A stretch of 36,104 nucleotides of DNA from a virus. The notes under the pieces were generated by a model that saw only the letters and a program-made list of their open reading frames with translations, made no database searches and was not told where the DNA came from. The position numbers and the translations under genes were made by a program. The DNA lies in the IMG/VR virus record IMGVR_UViG_3300038701_000890, positions 1 through 36,104 of that record. One strand, written 5' to 3'. This document shows, one piece after another, positions 1 to 36,104 of the stretch. How positions within the stretch are numbered: position 1 is the stretch's first letter; each line of letters opens with the position of its first letter.

Positions 1-126
1 TAGGCGTGTCGGCTAGTCTAGCCTCTATAAACAAACCAGTCTCATCGCTGTAGGCATCAACGACCGTCCCTAGGACGTGCTCACTATCACTCACATGAGT
101 ATCAAGTAAAGGTATGCCACCGTCTT
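1..126. repeat. Left copy of 126-bp terminal direct repeat (contig overlap)
   Basis: Positions 1-126 are identical base for base to 35977-36102; the match stops because the last two bases of the window (36103-36104) differ from 127-128. The repeat lies inside the prohead protease gene and joining the ends restores one uninterrupted reading frame. This is what an assembler leaves at the ends of a circular contig. A true short terminal repeat is less likely because it would cut an essential gene. Confidence 0.93.
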
Positions 127-274
127 TAATTTTCTTTATGGCGCCCTCAAAGGCTCCCTTAGCGAATATATCACCGTGAGCATCAGGCGGGCCGCCGTAT
201 GTAGCTGCGTAGCCGTGTAGGACACGCTCTTGTGGACGTAGATCTATGTCTACTTGTACACTTTTTGTTTCCAT
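1..274 (-). CDS. Prohead (HK97-type) maturation protease, N-terminal part (cut by window start)
   Basis: Reading leftwards from an ATG at 274-272 the frame begins METKSVQVDIDL and continues through GYAATYGGPPDAHGDIFAKG and LLDTHVSDSEHVLG, the N-terminal signature of HK97-family (U35-type) prohead serine proteases. These cleave scaffold or delta domains off the capsid protein during head maturation. The His of LLDTHV is in the place expected for the catalytic His. A GAGAGGA ribosome-binding site lies about ten bases upstream. The frame runs off position 1 and continues at 35976, so this piece and 35591-36104 are one gene of 219 codons. It follows the HAD gene after a 132-base gap and precedes the capsid gene. 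Confidence 0.9.
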   Translation of the reverse strand, partial: METKSVQVDIDLRPQERVLHGYAATYGGPPDAHGDIFAKGAFEGAIKKIKDGGIPLLDTHVSDSEHVLGTVVDAYSDETGLFIEARLADTP

Positions 275-374
275 TATTGTAAATCCTCTCTTAACCAAGA
301 TACTGTTAACATTACATTTATTTTGACTTATAAACACATAAAACAAACAATAGAGCTCTTAAACAAAAATTATC

Positions 375-404
375 TTGACAAGCTTATTCGAAATGTGTTA
401 TAAT
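375..404 (+). promoter_or_regulatory. Consensus sigma70-type promoter, pointing right (antisense to HAD and portal)
   Basis: TTGACA at 375-380, an 18-base spacer and TATAAT at 399-404 give perfect -35 and -10 hexamers on the + strand. Transcription would start near 411 and run antisense to the HAD gene and portal gene. An ATCTTCGAT sequence at 437-445 and a GTATCTTCGATAC at 552-564, both downstream, resemble the repeated element of the 12.7-13.0 kb hub. No convincing + strand gene follows until 3047. Confidence 0.6.
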
Positions 405-406
405 TA

Positions 407-1015
407 CTAGTATAAGAAGGAAGGAAGGGAAGGCCCATCTTCGATGATATATTCCGTAGGAATAAACAAAGGAAAACAACAAAGAGCAAGATCTTCATAC
501 ATTTTAGTAGCATATATTCCTGCTTCCTTAAGAGCCATTATTCCTTTATCCGTATCTTCGATACCTATTATATTAGTTAATTCTCCATACTTATTACTTA
601 TTATTTGTTTAGCTTTATTATAACCATCTGGCGATGGCTTAGCTTCTTCATAATCTTCTCTAGTAAGAATAACAGAGGCATCCCCAAGTATAGGGATATC
701 TTCTAATATTCTGTTTACTTCTACTCTAGGAGAATTAGTAACAATGGCCGTAGGTATATTATTATCTAAACAATAATGAAAAACATAAAAAGGATACTCA
801 AATATACATAGGTCCGTTACATCTAGTAGGTCCATATATATTTTATGTTTCTTTTGTTTGTTTTCTTCTGAAATAAAGAAGAATGGATTGTTTATCTGAG
901 TAATATACTCATCATAAGAAATATCAAAGCCAGTAGCTAAAACATAAGCCTCATGATGAAGTTCCTGGTTATCTAGAAGTGTGCCGTCTAAATCAAAGAA
1001 TACAGCATCTATCAT
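407..1015 (-). CDS. HAD-superfamily phosphatase (subfamily IA-like), candidate Kdo-8-phosphate phosphatase
   Basis: A 202-residue protein with the four HAD motifs in order: FFDLDGTLLD near the N-terminus (nucleophile and acid/base Asp), IVTNSPR, a Lys in EAKPSPDGY, and GIEDTDKGI as the Mg-binding motif. A C1-type helical cap lies between motifs I and II, so it resembles beta-phosphoglucomutase-like IA enzymes rather than the capless E. coli KdsC. I chose the ATG at 1015 because it overlaps the portal stop as ATGA; an upstream start at 1042 is possible. The gene is strikingly AT-rich: by hand the lines at 541-600 and 841-900 are 27% and 25% G+C, against 45% at 1141-1200 in portal. That suggests recent acquisition. 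A role in the Kdo pathway is inference from the kdsA and kdsB genes elsewhere; other sugar phosphates or nucleotides are possible substrates. Confidence 0.82.
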   Translation of the reverse strand: MIDAVFFDLDGTLLDNQELHHEAYVLATGFDISYDEYITQINNPFFFISEENKQKKHKIYMDLLDVTDLCIFEYPFYVFHYCLDNNIPTAIVTNSPRVEVNRILEDIPILGDASVILTREDYEEAKPSPDGYNKAKQIISNKYGELTNIIGIEDTDKGIMALKEAGIYATKMYEDLALCCFPLFIPTEYIIEDGPSLPSFLY

Positions 1016-2994
1016 AGTACAGTCCTTGGTGCTATTGTACATCTACAGCCTGGATGACAGGGTGGGTAAGATATCTCACCGTAGTCTACGTTTAGAGGCC
1101 GTGTAGTGCCCTCTGGCTGGTAGTTATCATTCTTACTTACAAAGTTATCCTCAACTGATATAACCTTACCATCGAGCCCCTGACAGTACGGACATGCATC
1201 CGAAGAAGCTACCCACTCAATCCCTTGTACACCCTCTGCTTTATATACGGCCTTAGAGCCCGCATTAGCTGCACGGATTGTTTCTGTTTGAGCTATAAGC
1301 CTAGCGCGGTTAGTTGCTACCGTTCCTACAAAAGCATCCTTTAATTCAGTGACTAAACGTGACCTATCCCATCCCTCATCAAATGACCGCTCTAGGGCCT
1401 TAGATACGGCCTGTACGCTCGTCTTTGAGAAAGAGGCTGCAAACTTATACTGCTCCTCTCTAATGAAGGCCAGCGTAGCTGCATTGGTTATGTCGAACTT
1501 AGTCCCAATCGTAAGAGCTGCCTGCTCACCTGCCATCTCTAAAAGACCTGACATAATGGGCGCTATAGATGCTGCCGCTGCTGCCGTCCACTCACGCTCT
1601 AGTCTCTCGAACTGTGACTGTATGGCCGCTATCTGCTCGCTGCTGAGTTCCTTTGTTTCTGTTTCTAATATCTTGTTTAAGGCCTTGCCTTGTTGTTTTA
1701 ATTCTTTCTTAGTCCAATGCTCAAATCTGTCGTAATATACATCAGCTGAACGGACCGTCCCTAGTGTTTGTTTTAGTAGATCTAAATCTCTACTCTTCTT
1801 CTTTAAGTCTATATCTACGACGGTTGAGACGTCTTCATCAGATTCTGCTTCTAAGGCATCGTCCGCGGCTTCAAGCCCTACTTCTGCCCTCGCCTCGTCT
1901 ATGGTCAATAAACCCGACTGGAAGCCAGCTATGGCGTTCTCAAAGCGTGTCTGCCTTCTGTTGATGAAGGCCGGTACATTGGATAGATCAAAAACAAAAG
2001 AACCACCCATTGGATTTAAGTCCTTGTCTCCCTCAATCTTAGAAAGGAAGCGGCGGTGTAGGGCGCTAATCGTCTCATCCCAGAAGGATAGGCGGGCCTC
2101 GTTGTAGTTGGAGTATGTAGCATGCTCTAGACCTGACTTAGCTCCCACTAGAATAGGGGGCACGCCTAGAGTCATGAGGATCCTTGTTTCACTGATACCG
2201 CGTAGGTCAATGAAGGCTAGTGACTGCATATCCATTGATAGTTGTTGGAACTCCGTAGAGCCCTCTAGCACGGCTATCTCGCCTCTGCTGTTGCCACCGT
2301 AGGTTTGCTTCCACTGCTCACGTATACGCTTTCTAGCCTCTGCTGATAGAGGCTCAGGGATACTCAGAATACCTGCAGGCACTCCGCCGTTCTGTAGCAT
2401 AGCTTTTGAGTAGTCAGTTGCGTCGTTGTCTGTAGCTATCTGCCGTAAACAAGCACGTAGTGGTGACTGGCCGTAGTAATCGTTGGTAGGATTAGGGAAC
2501 TTAAAATGTATAAGGTCCTCTCTAGCAATCCTATGTGTTTGACCGTCTAGATCATAAATATAATGAGAAACATAATGTTCTTGACTAGGCACTATCCTTA
2601 TACGATCAGGCCTCAGGGGCCATATCTCTAGGACCCTACCGCGGCCGTTCTTTAGTTTCATCCAATAACAGTTACCTGATAGATAAAGATGATTGACCGT
2701 CGTCTCTAGTAGCTCATACCCAGATAGATGGGCATTAGGGCGCTCTAGTAGGCGGACCGTGTCTGTGTCGTCTATTGTGTTACCGTCGTCGTCTACGGCC
2801 ATCAGTGGTGGCTCAGCAAACGATGTAGCTATCTCTTGGATACCAGCATACACGACCTCATTACGGCCGTATGCGTATGCGCCATTCGTTAGAAAGCTAT
2901 CTACTGGGTATTGAGGCTGTCCTGACTTATAAGCGGATACACCAGTCTCAAAACCCTTGGTGAATAATGTTTTTAGTTTAGAAAATATTCCCAT
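1012..2994 (-). CDS. Portal protein fused to a MuF-type head morphogenesis domain
   Basis: The 660-residue product starts like HK97-family portals (GRNEVVYAGIQEIATSFAEP, later PNPTNDYYGQSPLRACLRQI and LRGISETRILMTLGVPPILV) and would form the dodecameric DNA gate at the head vertex. HK97-like portals are usually about 400 residues. The extra 250 residues end in a MuF-type domain: ARLIAQTETIRAANAG, then DACPYCQGLDG and CHPGCRC with paired Cys, as in phage Mu gpF and SPP1 gp7 homologues that enter the head with or on the portal. An Ala-rich coiled-coil-like linker joins them. It lies after TerL with an opposite-strand cassette between, and its stop overlaps the HAD start. Start at ATG 2994; the upstream SD (CAGGG) is weak. 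Confidence 0.92.
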   Translation of the reverse strand: MGIFSKLKTLFTKGFETGVSAYKSGQPQYPVDSFLTNGAYAYGRNEVVYAGIQEIATSFAEPPLMAVDDDGNTIDDTDTVRLLERPNAHLSGYELLETTVNHLYLSGNCYWMKLKNGRGRVLEIWPLRPDRIRIVPSQEHYVSHYIYDLDGQTHRIAREDLIHFKFPNPTNDYYGQSPLRACLRQIATDNDATDYSKAMLQNGGVPAGILSIPEPLSAEARKRIREQWKQTYGGNSRGEIAVLEGSTEFQQLSMDMQSLAFIDLRGISETRILMTLGVPPILVGAKSGLEHATYSNYNEARLSFWDETISALHRRFLSKIEGDKDLNPMGGSFVFDLSNVPAFINRRQTRFENAIAGFQSGLLTIDEARAEVGLEAADDALEAESDEDVSTVVDIDLKKKSRDLDLLKQTLGTVRSADVYYDRFEHWTKKELKQQGKALNKILETETKELSSEQIAAIQSQFERLEREWTAAAAASIAPIMSGLLEMAGEQAALTIGTKFDITNAATLAFIREEQYKFAASFSKTSVQAVSKALERSFDEGWDRSRLVTELKDAFVGTVATNRARLIAQTETIRAANAGSKAVYKAEGVQGIEWVASSDACPYCQGLDGKVISVEDNFVSKNDNYQPEGTTRPLNVDYGEISYPPCHPGCRCTIAPRTVL

Positions 2995-3046
2995 AAAAAA
3001 CCCTGGTGTGTTAGTATATAAGAAAGGCCCCTATAGGAGGTACCCA

Positions 3047-3376
3047 ATGTTTAAAAATATGTTAATAGACGCTATGACTCTAAGTAACTATTTCAGAGAT
3101 GAAAGACTTGATGGCCCTACAGAGATGCTACTTGATCTGTTCTTAGCAGAGGACCAAGCTGGCAAGGGCGATATCGAGAAGATCGAAGAGTTATATGACT
3201 TATTGTTTATTCTTCTTGACGATGTAAGAGATAAACGATATAATCTAGATTTTAGTAAGGCTATTAAAGGTAAGACGGCCATACCTGAAAAAGTATTTCA
3301 GGCCCTTGTTCGACTGTCCTTTAACTGTTCACGTATCCTTGCTGTTTATAATACTCCAGGAGAGAGCCATGTATAG
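3047..3376 (+). CDS. Hypothetical protein of opposite-strand cassette, gene 1 (109 aa)
   Basis: ATG at 3047 is preceded by a strong AGGAGG (3035-3040), so translation on the + strand is likely even though the surrounding late operon runs the other way. The protein (MFKNMLIDAMTLSNYFRDER...) is acidic, largely helical by composition, soluble, with no membrane segment, and resembles nothing I recognise. It overlaps the next + gene by eight bases, so the two form a mini-operon. The line 3181-3240 is 30% G+C by hand count, lower than terminase or portal. Its place between terminase and portal, backwards, is typical of a moron (an added gene with its own promoter). Function unknown. Confidence 0.7.
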   Translation: MFKNMLIDAMTLSNYFRDERLDGPTEMLLDLFLAEDQAGKGDIEKIEELYDLLFILLDDVRDKRYNLDFSKAIKGKTAIPEKVFQALVRLSFNCSRILAVYNTPGESHV

Positions 3377-3659
3377 TCAATTAGTAGAAAACTGTATAGT
3401 TGCAGGTTATTATTTAAATGATGAGGAGCTTATCCGTTTGGGAAGCACCCTATCACGTAATCCAGATAAAGAAGATATACAAGATCTATTCTTCTTAGCA
3501 ATGAAACATTCAAATGACATATACGGTTCATGGGAGTCTATTATCATGGACCGTAATGCCTCTATACAAAACGGTACACCGCCTGATATTGCTCTGGCCG
3601 TCGGTACCGTCCTTATTATTAGTGAAGCCTACTTGAAAAAGGCCTTTACAGAAAACTGA
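3369..3659 (+). CDS. Hypothetical protein of opposite-strand cassette, gene 2 (96 aa)
   Basis: The start ATG at 3369 follows CCAGGAGAGAGCC, a good ribosome-binding site inside the end of the previous gene, indicating translational coupling. The 96-residue protein (MYSQLVENCIVAGYYLNDEE...) is acidic and helical with no transmembrane segment. Both cassette proteins are of similar size and helical type, but I cannot show that they are related. The last 14 bases overlap the 3' end of the large terminase gene on the other strand. I see no terminator hairpin after it, so transcripts would run antisense into terminase. Function unknown. Confidence 0.68.
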   Translation: MYSQLVENCIVAGYYLNDEELIRLGSTLSRNPDKEDIQDLFFLAMKHSNDIYGSWESIIMDRNASIQNGTPPDIALAVGTVLIISEAYLKKAFTEN

Positions 3660-4968
3660 TGCCACTGCCCGTACTTCCTGATAATTCAGTCAAAGCCCAA
3701 ACCAAAGCGTCTAGGCGGTCAGGGCTGCCGTCATATGAGTCAGGTGAAAACGAACACATCTGATCTTCTAATTTAGTAAATATACCTACATGAGAAACCT
3801 TAGCCTGCTCATATAAGGCGCTTATGGGCTCAGCCCGTACTCTTTTACCTCTAGTGGCCCTCACTCCTTTGAAGGGCACTCCTTTCCTTACAGTCCGTAG
3901 AGTATGCTCTACCATATCTCCACCTTGGTTGACCTCGGCCACTATCCTGTCTGCTTTCCATTCATCATATAACTTAACTGCCACCCTAGCCCACTCATCG
4001 GGCGTGTAGCGGCCTGATAGGTCGTCTAGTATGTAATAGTGCCCTGCCTCGTCTGCAGCTGCCACTATAATTCCTGTTTCATCCGCAGCCTCTCCACTTG
4101 TGACCGCTGGGTCAATGCCTACAACTATTCGGCTGTAGTCAATGGATGCTTCTGCTTTTATTCTTTGGCCGTCAATCATCGAGGGCTGCCACAGAGCGTC
4201 TGGGTTGTCCTCTAGTAATTCACCGTATAGTTCCTGCCTACCTAGCCTTGTGCCTTCATAGCGCGCCTCTACGGCCGTCAAGAAGCTTTCTGCTAGGTTA
4301 TCCTTGTTGTCGTAAGTAGAGCCCCGTGTGATCGTCGTACGTGGGTCCTGTATAAGTGCACTCATCAGCTTTCTAGGCTTTGGTGTAGTAGTTATGATTA
4401 CCTGTGGTTTAGGCCCTAAACGAAGACCAAAACAAAGCATATCCCATGTGTCTTGATCGTATTCCCAAGAGGAGAGCTCATCACACCAAGCAAAGGTATG
4501 CTGCGGTCCCCTGAGGCGGTCTGGCTTCTCAGCGCTGTAGGCTGTGATGACTGCCCCATTCTCAAAGCTTATGCGGCGCTTGGAGGGCTCGTACGTGCAC
4601 TCTATGCGTCTGCGGTGTGCACATGCCATTATGCCGCTCTCACCCTCTATCATAACGTCTCTGGCGTCTGCAGAGGTGGGAGCCACTAGAGCTATGCGTG
4701 CTTCTTTCTTTAATTCCATTACATGATCGAGCGTCGTCTCCGCCCCTACGCGGGTCTTACCGAAACCCCTACCGGCCAGTATAAGCCAGTAGACGTCCCA
4801 GTCTTCGGGAGCCAGTTGGTTAGGCCGTGCAAGGAATTCCCATGAGGCGGCCAGCACTCTGCGCTCTTTCTTGTTTAGCAGAAGATACAGATCCCTCTGA
4901 GTACATAAAGGTACGGAATCCCATATCTTTCTAAACTTTCTAAGTGATCGTGTATCATAATCTGGCAT
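3646..4968 (-). CDS. Terminase large subunit (packaging ATPase-nuclease)
   Basis: The 440-residue protein has the two-domain layout of large terminases. The ATPase shows a Walker A-like LAGRGFGKTRVGAE (residues about 67-80), Walker B FAWCDELSSW and a TTTPKP coupling motif. The C-terminal RNase H-like nuclease shows VVGIDPAVTSGEAADETG with its first metal-binding Asp and a final DRLDALVWALTEL. It drives DNA into the prohead through the portal and cuts the concatemer. The sequence style is the terminase_6/GTA-like group. It begins two bases after KdsB ends. The TerS-like gene lies over 5 kb upstream in the same leftward operon, with fibre and glycosylation genes between. Confidence 0.95.
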   Translation of the reverse strand: MPDYDTRSLRKFRKIWDSVPLCTQRDLYLLLNKKERRVLAASWEFLARPNQLAPEDWDVYWLILAGRGFGKTRVGAETTLDHVMELKKEARIALVAPTSADARDVMIEGESGIMACAHRRRIECTYEPSKRRISFENGAVITAYSAEKPDRLRGPQHTFAWCDELSSWEYDQDTWDMLCFGLRLGPKPQVIITTTPKPRKLMSALIQDPRTTITRGSTYDNKDNLAESFLTAVEARYEGTRLGRQELYGELLEDNPDALWQPSMIDGQRIKAEASIDYSRIVVGIDPAVTSGEAADETGIIVAAADEAGHYYILDDLSGRYTPDEWARVAVKLYDEWKADRIVAEVNQGGDMVEHTLRTVRKGVPFKGVRATRGKRVRAEPISALYEQAKVSHVGIFTKLEDQMCSFSPDSYDGSPDRLDALVWALTELSGSTGSGISFL

Positions 4969-4970
4969 AT

Positions 4971-5708
4971 TTATCCTAATAAATCTATAGAGGCCCTGTC
5001 GAAGTCAGCCTCGGTGTTTATAGCTATTGGGTTGTGGTCCGTAAACAATACAACCGCAGCCTTGTAGGGCCCGTCTATGACGCCCATGTATTCATTGTTT
5101 CTAAGTGCACAGCGTGGGTCCTCTTGCTCTGCACAGTACTTAGTAAGTGCTTCGCGGTCCCATACGGCCACCCCTAGATGCTCGTATATAACTTCCTTCG
5201 TAGGCTCGTCCGTCTGTAAACGAATAAGGTCCCGCAGGAAGCCGTCCTCTCCAAAAATAGCCTGGACGGTCGAGTTAGGTGACGGCCTGAATCCAGGCTC
5301 CCGCTGTATTACAGCCAATACGAGGTCCAACTCAGCGGCCTGTATAAATAGATTAACCATATCATCAATAAGAAGAGGTGGTATATTGACTTCATCGGAC
5401 TGTACATTCACGATTATGTTGTATTGATTTAACTCTATATTGTTTTCAACCGTGTGATTGACTCTGATCGTACCATTGCGTATCTTAGATGGTGTGCGGT
5501 ATACTGCTGGACAAAACGAAGAAGCTACGTCATGCATCTGCCTCGTGTCGTCTGCCGCTATGACGACCTCATCGAGCGTCTTGGCCTTCTTTGCGCGGTC
5601 GTATGTGTGCTGCAGTACAGGCTTACCTTTAATCTTTCTGGCTAGCTTTCCTGGTGCTCTTTCACTTGCCATTCTTGCGGGCAGTACCCCTAGAACTTTC
5701 TTTATCAT
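4971..5708 (-). CDS. kdsB: CMP-Kdo synthetase (3-deoxy-manno-octulosonate cytidylyltransferase)
   Basis: This 245-residue protein (E. coli KdsB is 248) would couple CTP and Kdo to CMP-Kdo. Family motifs visible are VLPARMASERAPGK near residues 9-21 (nucleotide-binding PAR-S-R-PGK), IKGKPVLQHTYDRA at 26-39, VVIAADD at 48-54 and NVQSDEVNIPP at 101-111, where the usual NVQGDEP has Gly to Ser and Pro to Val changes but keeps the metal-binding Asp105. The C-terminal NTEADFDRA matches the end of the family. Its start (MIKKVLG, with AGGAAG upstream) lies inside the end of the Maf gene, overlapping 47 bases, so the two are translationally linked. Base composition matches its neighbours, unlike the HAD gene. 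Related acylneuraminate cytidylyltransferases are the main alternative; motifs favour KdsB. Confidence 0.88.
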   Translation of the reverse strand: MIKKVLGVLPARMASERAPGKLARKIKGKPVLQHTYDRAKKAKTLDEVVIAADDTRQMHDVASSFCPAVYRTPSKIRNGTIRVNHTVENNIELNQYNIIVNVQSDEVNIPPLLIDDMVNLFIQAAELDLVLAVIQREPGFRPSPNSTVQAIFGEDGFLRDLIRLQTDEPTKEVIYEHLGVAVWDREALTKYCAEQEDPRCALRNNEYMGVIDGPYKAAVVLFTDHNPIAINTEADFDRASIDLLG

Positions 5709-7077
5709 ACTGACTTCCTGTTTTTACCTTGTTTTTGCCTATATCATTAAGTGGACAGCCGTGCAGTCCTACTTTTGAGTCTCCTGGGAAATGCTCTCCC
5801 TTGAGGGCCTGCTGTATTGTTTCTATTGAGGTCCGTATAACTTCTCTAATTAAAGAATAATTATAAGTGCCCGTACGCCAGTATTGATATTCCTGTATAT
5901 CATCATATTGTTTAACTAGATATACATATGCTGGGTTCGTGTCGAGGTCAGGGGCCGTGAGATCCTCTGCTGCCCTCTCTAGGTGTGTAATGAACTCACA
6001 GAGCTTAGCTTTGACGTTACGGACGTAAGGCTTCAGGATGTCTGGGTTGCCGTGGTGAGGCTTCTTAAACAAAACAGAAAGATCAACATGCTTCGTATTA
6101 GGTATATTAAGCCCCTCACTTGCGTTGTATGCGCGGTAGCCGTGCTCTTTGATCTTACCTCCCAGGTACTCGCCCTCTAGGATCCAGTTACCTTTTGTTT
6201 TCTTGTCCCCGTACTCTTCATAATGAAAAGCACTGGCCGTCATGTCCAGATCTCCTGCGTAGGTCTCCCCTTTGTCACCAAAACAAAGATCAACGCCAAT
6301 TAAGTATATGTCCGTGGCTCCCATGTATTTAAACAGGTTGATTGCCCAGGTGCTTACGCCTACGGGGCCCTCGTCTACGGTCACTATGTCGTTCCCTTCT
6401 ATGAATTGCCCTATCTTCATACAGTTGAGGCCCTGTGCAGCTATTAGAGGTCCCGTCCACATGTCATAGCAAGTAGGGTTAAGACTATTAGAAGCCAGTA
6501 GAGGTACGTCATTGTAATCGATATCCTTAAATCGTTCTATCTCTTGGTCGAATGGGTCTACGGCTAAACAAAGATCAGGCCGTATGCCGTTGTTGTGTAG
6601 GACCGTGATCCCTGTGCCACCAGTTACGATGAAGGCATGGCCACCCTCGCTTATGGTGCGTATTTTCTCTATATCTCTCTGGGTAGAGGGCCCTGCTCCT
6701 ACGAATAGAACGGGAGTGCCCTTCAGAGCTCCAGAAAGGGCCCTAAAATCGTATAACTCACGGTCACTGCACATGTTATACCAGTAGGTGTGTAGCGCGC
6801 TGTGTAGGGGCTGTAAGAAGCCTGATCCACGGCGGTTGAGTTTAAGGGTCGTACTAATATGATTAAACAAAGCCTCTCGCTGACTCTCAGTTCCAACGCA
6901 GTCGTGTATTCTTATCTCTAGTTTGCCAGGTGCCCCTATGAAAGGGAAGGTGGCGTAGGTTAGCTCGTCGTAGGTAAGTTCCTCTAGTCTAAAGGTGTTG
7001 GTTACTATTCTATAGTGTTCAGGCTTCGGGTCTGCAAACACGTGCATCTGCCAAGGCATTCTGTTTAATTTACTCAT
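5662..7077 (-). CDS. Maf-family (DUF115, MptE-like) glycosyltransferase
   Basis: The 471-residue protein carries the motility-associated-factor core: PVLFVGAGPS (residues 122-131), a GIRPDLCLAVDP segment (164-175) and GPVGVSTWAINLFKYMGATD followed by IYLIGVDLCFGD (237-268), matching the Gly-rich and G.DLA-type motifs of Maf proteins. Maf enzymes have a sialyltransferase-like fold and move CMP-activated nonulosonic acids (pseudaminic, legionaminic, and reportedly Kdo or Neu5Ac) onto Ser/Thr of flagellin. The DUF115 domain is also often labelled 6-hydroxymethylpterin pyrophosphokinase MptE-like, a less fitting role here. It starts by a TAATG overlap with the 50-residue upstream gene and its end overlaps kdsB, so donor-sugar activation and transfer are co-translated. 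The target is unknown; neighbouring Ser/Thr-rich fibre proteins are candidates. Confidence 0.8.
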   Translation of the reverse strand: MSKLNRMPWQMHVFADPKPEHYRIVTNTFRLEELTYDELTYATFPFIGAPGKLEIRIHDCVGTESQREALFNHISTTLKLNRRGSGFLQPLHSALHTYWYNMCSDRELYDFRALSGALKGTPVLFVGAGPSTQRDIEKIRTISEGGHAFIVTGGTGITVLHNNGIRPDLCLAVDPFDQEIERFKDIDYNDVPLLASNSLNPTCYDMWTGPLIAAQGLNCMKIGQFIEGNDIVTVDEGPVGVSTWAINLFKYMGATDIYLIGVDLCFGDKGETYAGDLDMTASAFHYEEYGDKKTKGNWILEGEYLGGKIKEHGYRAYNASEGLNIPNTKHVDLSVLFKKPHHGNPDILKPYVRNVKAKLCEFITHLERAAEDLTAPDLDTNPAYVYLVKQYDDIQEYQYWRTGTYNYSLIREVIRTSIETIQQALKGEHFPGDSKVGLHGCPLNDIGKNKVKTGSQYDKESSRGTARKNGK

Positions 7078-7229
7078 TACTCTCCCTTAAATAGATTCTC
7101 GAACTTAGTTTGGTACTCTTTGCATACTTCATCAATCTTCTCTATCATCTCCTTCCTCATCAGAAGGCACTCTTGTTCGAAGTTGACGGCCTTTCTTGGC
7201 CTGTGTTGTTTCTTCTTAAAGGGCCACAT
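7077..7229 (-). CDS. Small basic hypothetical protein (50 aa)
   Basis: A short frame from ATG 7229 encodes MWPFKKKQHRPRKAVNFEQE and then a charged helical stretch ending NLFKGE. The start overlaps the end of the 83-residue gene by 14 bases, a GGGAAAGAG purine stretch lies just upstream, and its stop overlaps the Maf ATG as TAATG. It exactly fills a gap that would otherwise be empty in a tightly packed operon. The Lys/Arg-rich N-terminus followed by an acidic/basic helix suggests nucleic-acid or membrane-surface contact or a small assembly factor. I do not recognise a family. Confidence 0.6.
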   Translation of the reverse strand: MWPFKKKQHRPRKAVNFEQECLLMRKEMIEKIDEVCKEYQTKFENLFKGE

Positions 7230-7467
7230 CTCTTTCCCAATCCTCTCTGTTTTGTAAACGTAGACCCCGTATCTCCAGGCTCTGACGTAAATTAGTGGAT
7301 GCTATCTTGTGACAGCTTATAGTGTTATCTTCGTAGAGGTTGGCCTGTAGTTCACACCATCCCCAAGCTACGTGCTCATCTGTTTCTATGTTGTAGACCT
7401 TGCAGGCCTCTTGAATATCCAGGGGCTCTGGCACGTCATCCGTGAAAACATACATAAAATACTTCAT
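7216..7467 (-). CDS. Hypothetical protein (83 aa)
   Basis: The product begins MKYFMYVFTDDVPEPLDIQE and is acidic, with no signal peptide or membrane segment. Its ATG overlaps the stop of the LamG-like gene by four bases and its end overlaps the 50-residue gene, so it is translated as part of this fibre-to-glycosyltransferase block. I recognise no domain. Given its place it may be a chaperone or accessory factor for the fibre proteins, but that is only inference from position. Confidence 0.65.
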   Translation of the reverse strand: MKYFMYVFTDDVPEPLDIQEACKVYNIETDEHVAWGWCELQANLYEDNTISCHKIASTNLRQSLEIRGLRLQNREDWERDVAL

Positions 7468-8261
7468 AATCCATACTTACCTAGAAGGTAGTCCTCTACA
7501 TCGGTTAAGTCTGAGCCAGTTAAAACAGAATCATAAACAAGAACTTCAGCGAGGTCTCCATCAAAGAAGAAGCCTCCACTGTACTCGCCTTGGTTTCCTA
7601 CTGCAAACTTATAGGAGGTGCCCTCTATGGCGTTGTAGTTAGAGCTTGTGGCACTCTCTGTTTGATCTGCTCCGTTTAGTTTCATATTGAACTGCGTATC
7701 TCCGTTAGAGTATGTAGCTGCTAAACAATAAAAAGTAGAATTTGAGAGGGTCGTGCTGTTCTGTGTTATTATTCTTACTGTACCACTTGTACTATAGGAG
7801 CGGCCCTCTATGAGGTTCTGGCTTCCAAAGAAGTCAGGTACGCCGATTCCCCAGCCTCTCAGTGCGTTACTTGCACTCTGCCCCATTAGTAGGCCTGCTG
7901 CGCTAGATACGTCGTCCGTGTTGAATACAGCATAAACAGTGACACTGGAAGGCTTTGCTTCAGCTGAGGCGGTGACCAGTCTGTCATTGACTCCGTCAAA
8001 GCGTACAACGGGCTCTCCGTTAATGATGCCCGTCTTGTATACGGGCCGTGCAGTTGATGTGTTAGCCACATCCCCTCTGCTGTCGTTACCTTCGTTACTC
8101 CAGGTACTCACTGCGTCTCCGTCTGTAAGTGATAGGCTGTCTGCTTTGAACCAGTACATTAAACCAGATAAAGAAGTAGGATCAAAGCCCCCTCCTCCAC
8201 CGCCTTCCTCTGCTGGTGGCTTGCTTCCAGCCAGTATGCCCTGTTGTAAGAAAAACTTCAT
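7464..8261 (-). CDS. LamG/concanavalin-like domain tail or fibre protein (265 aa)
   Basis: After a short N-terminus (MKFFLQQGILAGSKPPAEE) and a run of glycines, the protein shows a beta-sandwich pattern typical of LamG-type lectin modules on phage fibres: LSGLMYWFKADSLSLTDGD, VVRFDGVNDRLVT, a middle strand-rich core, then FFFDGDLAEVLVYDSVLTG and the YLLGKYGL ending common to this group. Such modules bind glycans or other domains at the tail tip or head surface. It shares the poly-Gly linker with the 514-residue protein immediately upstream (three bases apart), suggesting the two attach to the same structure. It is rich in Ser and Thr. Adhesion or decoration role is inferred from fold and context. 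Confidence 0.75.
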   Translation of the reverse strand: MKFFLQQGILAGSKPPAEEGGGGGGFDPTSLSGLMYWFKADSLSLTDGDAVSTWSNEGNDSRGDVANTSTARPVYKTGIINGEPVVRFDGVNDRLVTASAEAKPSSVTVYAVFNTDDVSSAAGLLMGQSASNALRGWGIGVPDFFGSQNLIEGRSYSTSGTVRIITQNSTTLSNSTFYCLAATYSNGDTQFNMKLNGADQTESATSSNYNAIEGTSYKFAVGNQGEYSGGFFFDGDLAEVLVYDSVLTGSDLTDVEDYLLGKYGL

Positions 8262-8264
8262 AGA

Positions 8265-9809
8265 TTAAGCGTCCGTTGCTGCGTCTGTTGTTATAGTTAG
8301 TTTTACACCGATAAGTTTAGCGTCAACCCCTAGGCTGTCTGCGCTTACGTCGCGGTATACTTGAAACACAACCCAATCTTCAGCTGCTGGTGAGCCACCT
8401 ACCGTCATAGCGCTTGTGGCTGCGGTCGTGTGCTGGTCCTCTGCTGTGATTAGCGTATCGGTCACCGTCTGTGCCGTGCCGAAGGCCGTGTCTATTGCAT
8501 CGTCATTAGATAGTGCGATGGCCTGTATTCCCCAGGTCACCGTGCCTGAGCCACTGGCTGCCGTCCATATAAAGGATGCCGTGATGGTGCCCTCATTCCA
8601 AGACTTGGGCATCTGTAGATGGAACTGTACGAACTCATCTGCTGCCGTGTCGAAGTCTTTGGTCTGTAGCATTATCTTGTTTGTCGTCGTCTCTGACGTC
8701 CCGTCTGCTGCTCCGGCCGTTGTTCTGCTTATCATGCCGTAGGCCGGTATCCACATCGTGTGTGTGCCTATAGACGGTGCCGCTGCCCACTTGACGCCCT
8801 CGGTCTGTCCGCTGTCTGCTGTTAGAAGGAAGTCGTTGGTGCCTGCTGTCAGGGCTACCCAATCTGAACCGTCATAAACAAGAAGATCACCCGTGCTGGG
8901 CGTTATGCCTGCTATATCAGCGAGGTATGCGTTGAAGGCCTGTACGTCACTGCCTACCGCCACTCCAAGTGCCGTGCGTGCTGCTGAGGCTGTGGTTGAC
9001 CCTGTGCCGCCCTCTGTAAGGGGAAGGGCCGTGTCTAGGGTAAGGGATGTGAAGTCTGCTGCGCCGTCACTGTCTATGCTGGCTACTGCCACGTCTCCAC
9101 TGTCGTAGATGTTGACCGTCTCTGTGCCTGCGGCGTCTCCTAGTATTATGTTTAAGCTGCCGTCGCTGTGCAGGTCGATGTCTGCAGCAGAAACAGAAAG
9201 AATTTGATTACCATTAACATCTAAGTCACCGCCAAGCTGTGGCGATGTGTCGTCTACTACGTCGCTGCTTCCGCCGCCGCCTCCTGTGGCCGTCAGGTCT
9301 ATCCAAGTGCTGCCGTCGTAGTACTCGACCGTGCTGTCGTCTGTATTCTTTCTTAGGTCACCCTCTATTGGTGTGCCTGGTCTCTGTGCCTCTGTACCGC
9401 CCGGTATGTTGATACCCTCTGTGCCTGGAAGCTGTGCGTTGTCTGAGAGGCCTATAGTTGGATTACCTGAGGTGCCGTCGCCGTTAGCTACGTCAACCTC
9501 TCCTGCCGTCCCTGTGACGGTCCTGGCTGCTGCCGTGCCACTGCCTGTGCGTGTGACTAGGCCCGTGGTAGCTAGGTCAGCTACTGCGTCTAAGTCGCCG
9601 TCTAGTGTGAAGTCTATCTCGTTGTCGCCGTCGTCTTCTGCGACCGTCAGGCCCGTGCTCTGGCTCTTCAGGCTGTTGAACTGAAGCTGTACCCCTGATT
9701 TTGTCTCGTATACACCAGCCCCTGTCCCTAGGTTGGTGGCGGTGTTTGTTTCACCGTCTCCTCCGCCCCCTCCGCCAGAAGCAGGTAATAAGCTGGTAAG
9801 TAATGACAT
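8265..9809 (-). CDS. Ser/Thr/Gly/Asp-rich fibre-like protein (514 aa)
   Basis: The protein opens MSLLTSLLPASGGGGGGDGE, the same Gly-rich start as its neighbour, and is unusually rich in Thr, Ser, Ala, Gly and Asp with hardly any Cys, His or Trp. Repetitive beta-structured pieces (PQLGGDLDVNGNQIL, TALPLTEGGTGSTTASAA) are those seen in phage tail-fibre shafts, and GDLRKNTDDSTVEYYDGSTW is a common fibre insert. The C-terminal 170 residues form a different, globular-looking domain. It follows the 119-residue decoration-like gene and precedes the LamG-like gene and the Maf/KdsB genes. As a long Ser/Thr-rich surface protein near the transferase it is a plausible glycosylation substrate; that is inference. 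Confidence 0.75.
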   Translation of the reverse strand: MSLLTSLLPASGGGGGGDGETNTATNLGTGAGVYETKSGVQLQFNSLKSQSTGLTVAEDDGDNEIDFTLDGDLDAVADLATTGLVTRTGSGTAAARTVTGTAGEVDVANGDGTSGNPTIGLSDNAQLPGTEGINIPGGTEAQRPGTPIEGDLRKNTDDSTVEYYDGSTWIDLTATGGGGGSSDVVDDTSPQLGGDLDVNGNQILSVSAADIDLHSDGSLNIILGDAAGTETVNIYDSGDVAVASIDSDGAADFTSLTLDTALPLTEGGTGSTTASAARTALGVAVGSDVQAFNAYLADIAGITPSTGDLLVYDGSDWVALTAGTNDFLLTADSGQTEGVKWAAAPSIGTHTMWIPAYGMISRTTAGAADGTSETTTNKIMLQTKDFDTAADEFVQFHLQMPKSWNEGTITASFIWTAASGSGTVTWGIQAIALSNDDAIDTAFGTAQTVTDTLITAEDQHTTAATSAMTVGGSPAAEDWVVFQVYRDVSADSLGVDAKLIGVKLTITTDAATDA

Positions 9810-19407: not shown

Positions 19408-19724
19408 TGGATCTAAATAAACTAGCAGCAGAGCTGCACATGGTAAGTAAAGCAAACGGCCACTGGGCCAAGGGCAAGTATCCTGACCTAGGCACGGCCG
19501 TAACACTGGCTATAGGTGACCTAGCTGAGATAATTAAAAGAGATCAGAAGGGCGTAAAAGAGCAAGTATCTGATAATGTATCCTGTATTAACCATTTTGA
19601 AGAGAAACTAGCTGACGCAGTTATACGTTGTTTAGATATAGCAGCTGCCTATAAACTAGATATAGAAATGGCCGTCAAAAGCAAGGCCCTCTTAAACAAA
19701 GCGAGGATCCCACATAGTGAGTAG
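19407..19724 (+). CDS. MazG-like nucleotide pyrophosphohydrolase-type protein
   Basis: I place the start at ATG 19407, which has GGGAGG six bases upstream and overlaps the previous stop, giving 105 residues. The pattern AKGKYPDLGTAVTLAIGDLA then HFEEKLADAVIRCLDIAAAY and LDIEMAVKSKALLNKARIPH matches the all-alpha NTP pyrophosphatase (MazG-like) layout, with helices carrying E..LADAVIR.LD and the ...K...N..R.PH ending. The first acidic metal-binding helix (usually E..E) reads GDLAEIIKR and is weaker than normal, so activity could be reduced. Such proteins cleave dNTPs or alarmones; in phages they are thought to adjust host (p)ppGpp or nucleotide pools. Confidence 0.65.
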   Translation: MDLNKLAAELHMVSKANGHWAKGKYPDLGTAVTLAIGDLAEIIKRDQKGVKEQVSDNVSCINHFEEKLADAVIRCLDIAAAYKLDIEMAVKSKALLNKARIPHSE

Positions 19725-20508
19725 TTTAACATTTATCATAGGCCCCTGTGCTATAGTTGATGTAGAGACCTCTGTTTTAGAGGCCCTGGCCATCAAGGAA
19801 GTACAGAAGATGGTAGAAGAGCAGTCTGGTGAGAAGATTGATATTATTTTTAAATCATCGTTCAATAAAGCTCAGCGTACACAAGGCGCCAGTTACCACG
19901 GAACGGGCGTACATGCTGGACTAGCTGCACTTCAAGCAGTTAAGGACATGACAGGCTTCCGGGTTACCAGTGACGTCCATAGCGTACAGGAGATAGAGGA
20001 AGCGGCTAACGTACTTGATCTTATTCAAATTCCTCATCAATTATGTAATTATACTGAAATACTAGAGGCAGCGGCCCTGACTGGGCTACCTATCTCAGTT
20101 AAGAAAGGCACCTTTACAAGTGTCAAAACAATGGAGGCAACGGTAGCCAAGATTAAGAATATCAACCCAGATGCAGAGATCATAATCATGGAGCGCGGCA
20201 ATATCTTTGGATATGACAAGGTAGTCGTTGATATACTGAATGTAGCTAGATTAAAGGAGATACCTGGTGTGTTTGTAGGTATTGATGCTACACACCCAGC
20301 ACAGGATCGCTCTCTAGCCCCTATACTTGCCATGTGTGGCGTTTCTGCTGGTGCAGACGTAGTCTTCCTTGAGTCCTGCTTGGACCCAACACAGGCGCCC
20401 TGTGACGGCCACTGTATGCCTTATACACAGGACCTTCCAACCATAGTAGCTAAGTGTATGCTTATAGAGATCACTAGACAGCTAGGGGAGGACGCGTGCG
20501 AATTATAG
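19717..20508 (+). CDS. kdsA: Kdo-8-phosphate synthase (metal-dependent type)
   Basis: This 263-residue enzyme would condense phosphoenolpyruvate with arabinose 5-phosphate to Kdo-8-phosphate. Family motifs are IIGPCAIVD, FKSSFNKAQRT, VTSDVHS, IQIPHQLCNYTEIL, VKKGTF, IMERGNIFGYDKVVVDI, GIDATHPAQ and FLESCLDPTQAPCDG. The four metal ligands of the metal-dependent class, Cys11, His193, Glu219 and Asp230, are all in place (in Aquifex KdsA, Cys11, His185, Glu222, Asp233), so this is not the metal-free E. coli kind. GTG start at 19717, GAGG ten bases before. It sits in the replication operon, far from kdsB and Maf, overlapping both neighbours by a few bases. G+C (43% in 20041-20100) is like its surroundings. 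Confidence 0.93.
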   Translation: MSSLTFIIGPCAIVDVETSVLEALAIKEVQKMVEEQSGEKIDIIFKSSFNKAQRTQGASYHGTGVHAGLAALQAVKDMTGFRVTSDVHSVQEIEEAANVLDLIQIPHQLCNYTEILEAAALTGLPISVKKGTFTSVKTMEATVAKIKNINPDAEIIIMERGNIFGYDKVVVDILNVARLKEIPGVFVGIDATHPAQDRSLAPILAMCGVSAGADVVFLESCLDPTQAPCDGHCMPYTQDLPTIVAKCMLIEITRQLGEDACEL

Positions 20509-35601: not shown

Positions 35602-36104
35602 TATATTTTCTCCTTGTTTGTTTAATAGACATACCTAATAGGTCTGCCCTTTTTTCGAGGATAGTTACTTCCTCGTCTGTTGGAAGTGCGCTCTCTGTAG
35701 GCTGCTCCTGCTCAACAACTTCTTCTACTTGCTTCTCACAAGTACAAGGGTTGCAGTCACAAGCACCTCTAGCTTCACCGTCCGATTTAACTGATAATAT
35801 TTCTGCCCTGTCATTAGCAGGGATAGGAACTACTGATACTTCAACCATGTCAACATCAGTAATAACTCTAACTTCTTGACCGTCGTAGCGGTCGTATCTC
35901 ATGTCTTTAATATAAAAACCAACACTCATCTTCTTGATGTGGCCCTGCATGAGCTTCTGACGGATCTCTTCGACTTTAGGCGTGTCGGCTAGTCTAGCCT
36001 CTATAAACAAACCAGTCTCATCGCTGTAGGCATCAACGACCGTCCCTAGGACGTGCTCACTATCACTCACATGAGTATCAAGTAAAGGTATGCCACCGTC
36101 TTCC
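35591..36104 (-). CDS. Prohead maturation protease, C-terminal part (cut by window end)
   Basis: This is the rest of the gene that starts at 274. After the shared HVSDSEHVLGTVVDAYSDET segment come LMQGHIKKMSVGFYIKDMRY, where Met-Ser-Val-Gly-Phe carries the catalytic Ser of this protease family, and DVDMVEVSVVPIPANDRAEI, the other conserved C-terminal block. The tail (ACDCNPCTCEKQ) has four Cys and ends in acidic and basic residues, longer than the minimal protease. The apparent start at 36070 is internal. The stop overlaps the capsid ATG by 11 bases, so both are co-translated. Confidence 0.92.
   Translation of the reverse strand, partial: EDGGIPLLDTHVSDSEHVLGTVVDAYSDETGLFIEARLADTPKVEEIRQKLMQGHIKKMSVGFYIKDMRYDRYDGQEVRVITDVDMVEVSVVPIPANDRAEILSVKSDGEARGACDCNPCTCEKQVEEVVEQEQPTESALPTDEEVTILEKRADLLGMSIKQTRRKYNGK
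35977..36102. repeat. Right copy of the 126-bp terminal direct repeat
   Basis: Identical to 1-126. The final two bases of the window, 36103-36104, are CC where the left copy has TA, probably assembly end error. Removing one copy gives a circular length of 35,976 bp. Confidence 0.93.

Follow-up and report, generated by a model that had tools for sequence, protein, structure and literature searches.

An overlapping kdsB and Maf-like gene pair in a siphovirus genome that may activate a Kdo-like sugar and transfer it to protein

The window, meaning the whole stretch of 36,104 nucleotides analyzed here, is an essentially complete 36 kb bacterial virus genome, because bases 1-126 recur at 35977-36102 as a 126-bp terminal repeat. 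Its predicted gene content, which includes tail fibre J, a tape measure, a portal and a major head protein, is that of a siphovirus. On the minus strand, a fibre-like gene, a LamG gene, an 83-aa gene, a DUF115 gene, kdsB, terL and a portal gene follow one another in that order. The features that matter for the interpretation are as follows.

8265..9809, minus strand: fibre-like protein of 514 aa, Ser/Thr 22%, matching phrog_697 and tail-fibre phrogs; candidate acceptor
7464..8261, minus strand: LamG/ConA-like protein of 265 aa, Ser/Thr 20%, matching Laminin_G_3 (5.6e-12) and phrog_10356, a virion structural protein; candidate acceptor
7216..7467, minus strand: 83-aa protein between the LamG and DUF115 genes, unmatched by any family of Pfam, PHROGs and NCBIfam
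5662..7077, minus strand: short Maf-like (DUF115/PF01973) predicted transferase of 471 aa; candidate CMP-ulosonate transferase
5662..5708, minus strand: overlap of the kdsB and DUF115 genes, 47 bases, from the open reading frame coordinates
4971..5708, minus strand: divergent KdsB-family cytidylyltransferase of 245 aa, with a CMP-activated Kdo-like sugar as its putative product
3646..4968, minus strand: TerL (PF03237/PF17289, phrog_979), whose start lies 2 nt past the kdsB stop
1012..2994, minus strand: portal protein with a MuF-like C-terminal part (phrog_2662, 2.3e-105), downstream in the same direction
407..1042, minus strand: HAD hydrolase similar to beta-phosphoglucomutase, with no support for a role in a Kdo route
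19717..20508, plus strand: divergent KdsA-like 3-deoxy-ulosonate-phosphate synthase of 263 aa (DAHP_synth_1, 3.8e-39)

The reading frame coordinates and domain matches bear out the arrangement described in the first-pass annotation, in which kdsB and the DUF115 gene overlap, fibre-like genes come before them and TerL comes after. An overlap of this kind may couple the translation of the two genes. Each start codon has a ribosome-binding-like sequence ahead of it, which for the kdsB ATG is AGGAAG, and the pair equals terL in GC3 (0.49-0.50 and 0.48). Both genes therefore appear to be genuine and resident in this genome. Between terL and the portal gene (2957-3659), two plausible plus-strand open reading frames run against the operon direction, and a strong promoter-like site lies at 3216. 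If the record were circular, the minus-strand order would continue as portal, HAD, protease and major head protein. The HAD gene, at the AT-rich GC3 of 0.24 versus about 0.45 elsewhere, lies between the portal and, in that circular arrangement, the protease, which suggests a recent gain.

Membership of the DUF115 protein in PF01973 is clear (3.5e-25, 89.2 bits against a Pfam cut-off of 34.6), but this family spans both MptE and Maf and its name alone therefore decides nothing. When the single sequence was compared with solved structures using phmmer, the best match was the Magnetospirillum Maf 5mu5 (2.6e-9), and MptE was not matched at E values up to 10. A Maf-only HMM scores the protein at 125 bits. 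Of the 35 positions that at least 75% of Mafs conserve, 21 are identical in it and 7 others fall in gaps of the window row, and in a 30-row alignment the invariant columns besides the initiator Met are all kept (G129, P130, S131, L160, V241, G261, D263 and G322). The AlphaFold model (mean pLDDT 64, with a core at 85-94 and poor ends) matched Maf 5mu5 at 1.3e-12 and MptE at 6.5e-6 in Foldseek. In the VIA comparison, Maf reached a Z of 24.2 over 346 residues (model 30..434) versus 13.2 over 192 residues for MptE, and the Cst-I/CstII (GT42) sialyltransferases reached a Z near 10. Maf sequences were present in the alignment behind this model, which is thus not independent evidence, whereas the single-sequence structure match is.

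Comparison of 5662-7077 therefore places Maf above MptE by sequence, profile and fold, and the protein does not group with MptE. A pterin diphosphokinase of the MptE type (8sd5) has in its favor the common PF01973 domain, which is all that it shares with the window protein, and its place as the second-best fold match. We reject this assignment as extremely improbable, given that its sequence, profile and fold-length matches are far weaker than those of Maf and that no pterin gene was recognized among the proteins scanned in this genome. Judged on sequence and model together, the DUF115 product is predicted to be a divergent Maf-like protein. The protein lacks a large part of the Maf N-terminal domain, the GxGxGYH motif included (a gap in the window row of the 30-row alignment A4), which is why "Maf-like" rather than a standard Maf is the appropriate name. 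With the Maf flagellin glycosyltransferases (5mu5 and the Clostridium botulinum enzyme) it shares catalytic-domain sequence and fold, conserved motifs and a helical C-terminal part. It differs from these proteins of about 550-760 aa in its length of 471 aa, in being encoded by a phage beside kdsB and terL, and in having an acceptor that is only a candidate. Because the BFVD library already includes MptE-like phage proteins, the mere presence of DUF115 in a phage is no novelty.

One possible target for such an enzyme would be host flagellin, whose modification could, for example, shut out rival flagellotropic phages. Flagellin is the known substrate of Maf and, to our knowledge, every characterized Maf enzyme acts on it. 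The bacterial relatives also fit this role: 29 bacterial loci from a genome-collection scan carry DUF115, their proteins are full-length Maf-type (550-760 aa, except for one shorter open reading frame), and a cytidylyltransferase lies near some of them. Even so, modification of flagellin seems very unlikely given that much of the Maf N-terminal domain is missing from the window protein, that its cellular relatives in phylum-wide searches are only about 30% identical over the catalytic domain, and that the gene sits among late structural genes. Some Pseudomonadota (L091, L093-L096) have open frames of about 1200 codons with this DUF115 domain, which are much larger than Maf.

The kdsB product matches CTP_transf_3 (PF02348) at 8.4e-23 and is fitted best by the KdsB subfamily models of NCBIfam (PRK05450, 121 bits, under every curated cut-off), and all 13 of its structure matches at E<=0.001 are CMP-Kdo synthetases. 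In a tree, a 100/100 split separates KdsB proteins, the window protein among them, from the cytidylyltransferases near bacterial Maf genes; the branch of the window protein is long, at 2.51 changes per column, and exactly where it attaches is uncertain. These comparisons point to a divergent member of the KdsB family. The CTP-loop Pro/Arg/Arg/Lys, His177 and Glu206 are retained. The Mg-A ligands D95 and D219 of Aquifex KdsB are strictly conserved (PMC3149649); the window protein keeps the first as Asp105 but has Asn231 (codon at about 5016-5018) in place of Asp219. It also carries Glu16 for Thr14, QSDEV for QGDEP and NNEYMG for SLEQLR, so that only the Glu of the LEQ(L/N)R motif survives. The Asn in place of the Mg-ligand Asp recurs in most of the phage KdsB proteins aligned (L021, L022, L024-L028, L030, L032, L035 and L036), and it is thus a recurrent feature rather than a local defect.

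The gene called KdsA in the first-pass annotation does encode a member of the KDO8P synthase family, but a divergent one. KDO8P synthase is its best NCBIfam family, with scores below the cut-offs (194 bits versus 242, and 188 versus 314). The metal ligands Cys, His, Glu and Asp are kept, whereas KANR has become KAQR, LCRQTD has become LCNYTE with loss of its Arg, and the loop after DATH is shortened. The KAQR and LCNYTE changes are unlike other phage KdsA proteins aligned. The lost Arg is presumably the substrate-binding R106 of structure 1t8x, an entry whose title names an R106G mutant of KDO8P synthase.

A self-contained route to Kdo, as had been proposed for this genome, does not hold. The HAD gene exists, but as a candidate KdsC it was rejected: it is beta-phosphoglucomutase-like with other HAD matches, and no KdsC model is among them. 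Neither KdsC nor KdsD (SIS) was recognized among the proteins scanned of this genome. The host would therefore have to provide both arabinose 5-phosphate and the phosphatase. The identification of the sugar as Kdo is likewise weakened by the deviation of both KdsA and KdsB at substrate or metal positions, and on account of this divergence we call the sugar "Kdo-like". Whether it is strictly Kdo is an even call. It is possible, though rather doubtful, that KdsA and KdsB have diverged together to make another 3-deoxy-ulosonic acid, which the Maf-like protein would then transfer, a reading compatible with our preferred explanation except for the sugar. At motif and metal positions both enzymes depart from the forms found in cells and in other phages, and the KdsB branch is very long, as such a sugar would lead one to expect. 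On the other hand, fast phage evolution alone could produce changes of this kind, and the family profiles still favor KDO8P synthase and CMP-Kdo synthetase over their relatives.

Other phages offer a useful comparison. An alignment scan found KdsB in 19 viral contigs, many of which also have KdsA. PF01973 occurs in only 1 of these 19, as a weak match within a record of 429 kb, and the jumbo phage LR756500 holds the corresponding weak match. A 114-aa cupin is common to 10 of the viral KdsB contigs, and a JmjC/cupin protein is present in 6. In four contigs (L025, L026, L030 and L035), kdsA and kdsB are adjoined by a further family, one member of which matches Pfam GT29 at 0.0013. The model of this family (mean pLDDT 63) was built from phage sequences only, with no sialyltransferases in the alignment, and its top 23 structure matches are sialyltransferases only, with Z up to 10.9. 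The family profile has no structure match by sequence, and the GT29-like assignment consequently depends on the fold search and the one weak Pfam match. LR756500 has kdsA, kdsB and a relative of this family.

Going by sequences and predicted folds, phage kds genes appear to be accompanied by CMP-sugar-transferase folds in two or more different transferase settings. By analogy, the GT29-like pairing would link phage kds genes indirectly to CMP-sugar transfer and so lend support to activation and transfer in the window. These cassettes (L025, L030, L035 and others) resemble the window in combining Kdo-type sugar genes with a sialyltransferase-fold protein, and they differ in having a GT29-like rather than a Maf-like transferase, kdsA and kdsB close together, and the 114-aa cupin. 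The recurrent set of JmjC/cupin, 114-aa cupin, kdsB, kdsA, phrog_28018-type and GT29-like proteins (L025:3066-7187, L030:4643-9467 and L035:4649-9485) is possibly a second phage Kdo-transfer system.

Several further observations were made in these contigs. In LR756500.1 (L011:10969-13934), kdsA and kdsB are lined up with what looks by eye like a KdsD-type SIS protein, the GT29-like protein is nearby and the weak DUF115 match is at 212.6 kb. Placement of kdsB among packaging genes also recurs: one unrelated phage contig has the order terL-kdsB-portal with overlapping genes (L022:604-4249), and L024 has kdsB upstream of terL. Oxygenases of the 2OG-Fe(II)/JmjC type are repeatedly found near phage kds genes (L024:3-689, L032:7808-8371, L034:6695-7381, L036:6981-8720 and L017:6983-9083), and a hydroxylate-then-glycosylate order is conceivable. 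Records of kdsB and kdsA from Acinetobacter "phages" lie among the chromosomal genes lpxK, msbA and holB and were discarded as phage evidence; "Acinetobacter phage MD-2021a" (L016, CAKLQH020000011.1), with the host chromosomal genes msbA, lpxK, kdsB and holB, is likely host contamination.

The kdsB and DUF115 pair is ordinary by its parts and unusual by its combination. It was found in no other phage examined, so conserved linkage is not established. No phage relative with this DUF115 was recovered by tblastn against phages (E up to 10), nor by exact-peptide scans, alignment scans or a portal scan, and the TerL relatives L002-L010, most of which are short fragments, have neither gene. The open-access literature yielded no description of a phage DUF115-kdsB system. 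This isolation, together with the position of kdsA 14 kb from kdsB on the opposite strand, is what would be expected if the neighbors were unrelated morons, with the DUF115 protein in some other role and kdsB and kdsA boosting the Kdo supply of the host. Nevertheless, chance proximity is decidedly unlikely in view of the gene overlap, the juxtaposition of a CMP-sugar maker with a CMP-sugar transferase fold, and the recurrence of kds genes with a sialyltransferase-fold protein in other phages.

The most satisfactory account of these observations begins with the joining of phosphoenolpyruvate by KdsA to a host aldose phosphate, which would be arabinose 5-phosphate if the product is Kdo. After a host phosphatase had removed the phosphate, the phage KdsB would link CMP to the free acid, and the Maf-like protein, co-expressed from the overlapping gene, would transfer the activated sugar in the cytoplasm to Ser/Thr residues of protein being made at the same time. 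The most probable acceptors would be the Ser/Thr-rich fibre or LamG proteins of the phage itself, whose genes lie a short way upstream. The mature virion would then carry the sugar, and its adsorption or masking could change. The expectation that some Maf enzymes accept CMP-Kdo has proved correct, in that the C. botulinum Maf adds Kdo to Ser/Thr of flagellin in E. coli, at +220 Da per site (PMC11339370).

The steps of this account differ in strength. Activation and transfer of a CMP-ulosonic acid is probable; that the transfer is to a virion protein falls a little short of an even chance. Ser plus Thr make up 0.222 of the fibre protein and 20% of the LamG protein, where the mean is 0.129. Other tail proteins have just as much, however, and a high content of these residues is a common property of tail proteins, so that the choice of the fibre and LamG proteins as acceptors is a guess from position. 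Precedent for virion glycosylation comes from the mycobacteriophages Che8 and Rita, whose capsid proteins, according to PMC11256854, carry sugar that is linked to glycosyltransferases encoded by the phages; these differ from the window in that no report of a CMP-activated ulosonic acid or Maf-like enzyme was found for them.

The sugar might instead be placed on a host surface glycan such as LPS or capsule, thereby remodeling the cell surface to block superinfection. Glycans are the acceptors of the sialyltransferases that share the fold, and kds genes in viruses are usually taken to be LPS genes (PMC5332604, PMC9529941). We regard this outcome as unlikely, because the transferase is nearest to Maf, a protein O-glycosyltransferase, and not to any known Kdo transferase. 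Furthermore, no WaaA-, KpsC/KpsS- or WbbB-like protein or glycan assembly gene was present among the proteins scanned, and the packaging-operon position suggests late expression. The proteins scanned from this complete genome also yielded no other sugar transferase. The explanation we prefer, though held tentatively and at slightly less than even confidence, is that the phage makes a CMP-activated Kdo-like sugar and that its Maf-like protein transfers this sugar onto protein, most plausibly its own fibre or LamG proteins.

A broader and somewhat unlikely proposition is that phages have independently built CMP-ulosonate protein-modification systems from a Kdo-type synthase, a KdsB with the Asp-to-Asn change and a transferase drawn from different families, Maf-like in this genome and GT29-like in others. 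In the window, such a system would sit among the packaging genes and coat virion proteins as they are made, using an ulosonic acid other than Kdo. If the activity proposed for the window pair is real, it would also provide a compact Maf for protein glyco-engineering. Although an LPS role is the routine label for kds genes in viruses, the alternative raised by this locus is that some of them may serve to decorate proteins, perhaps those of the virion.
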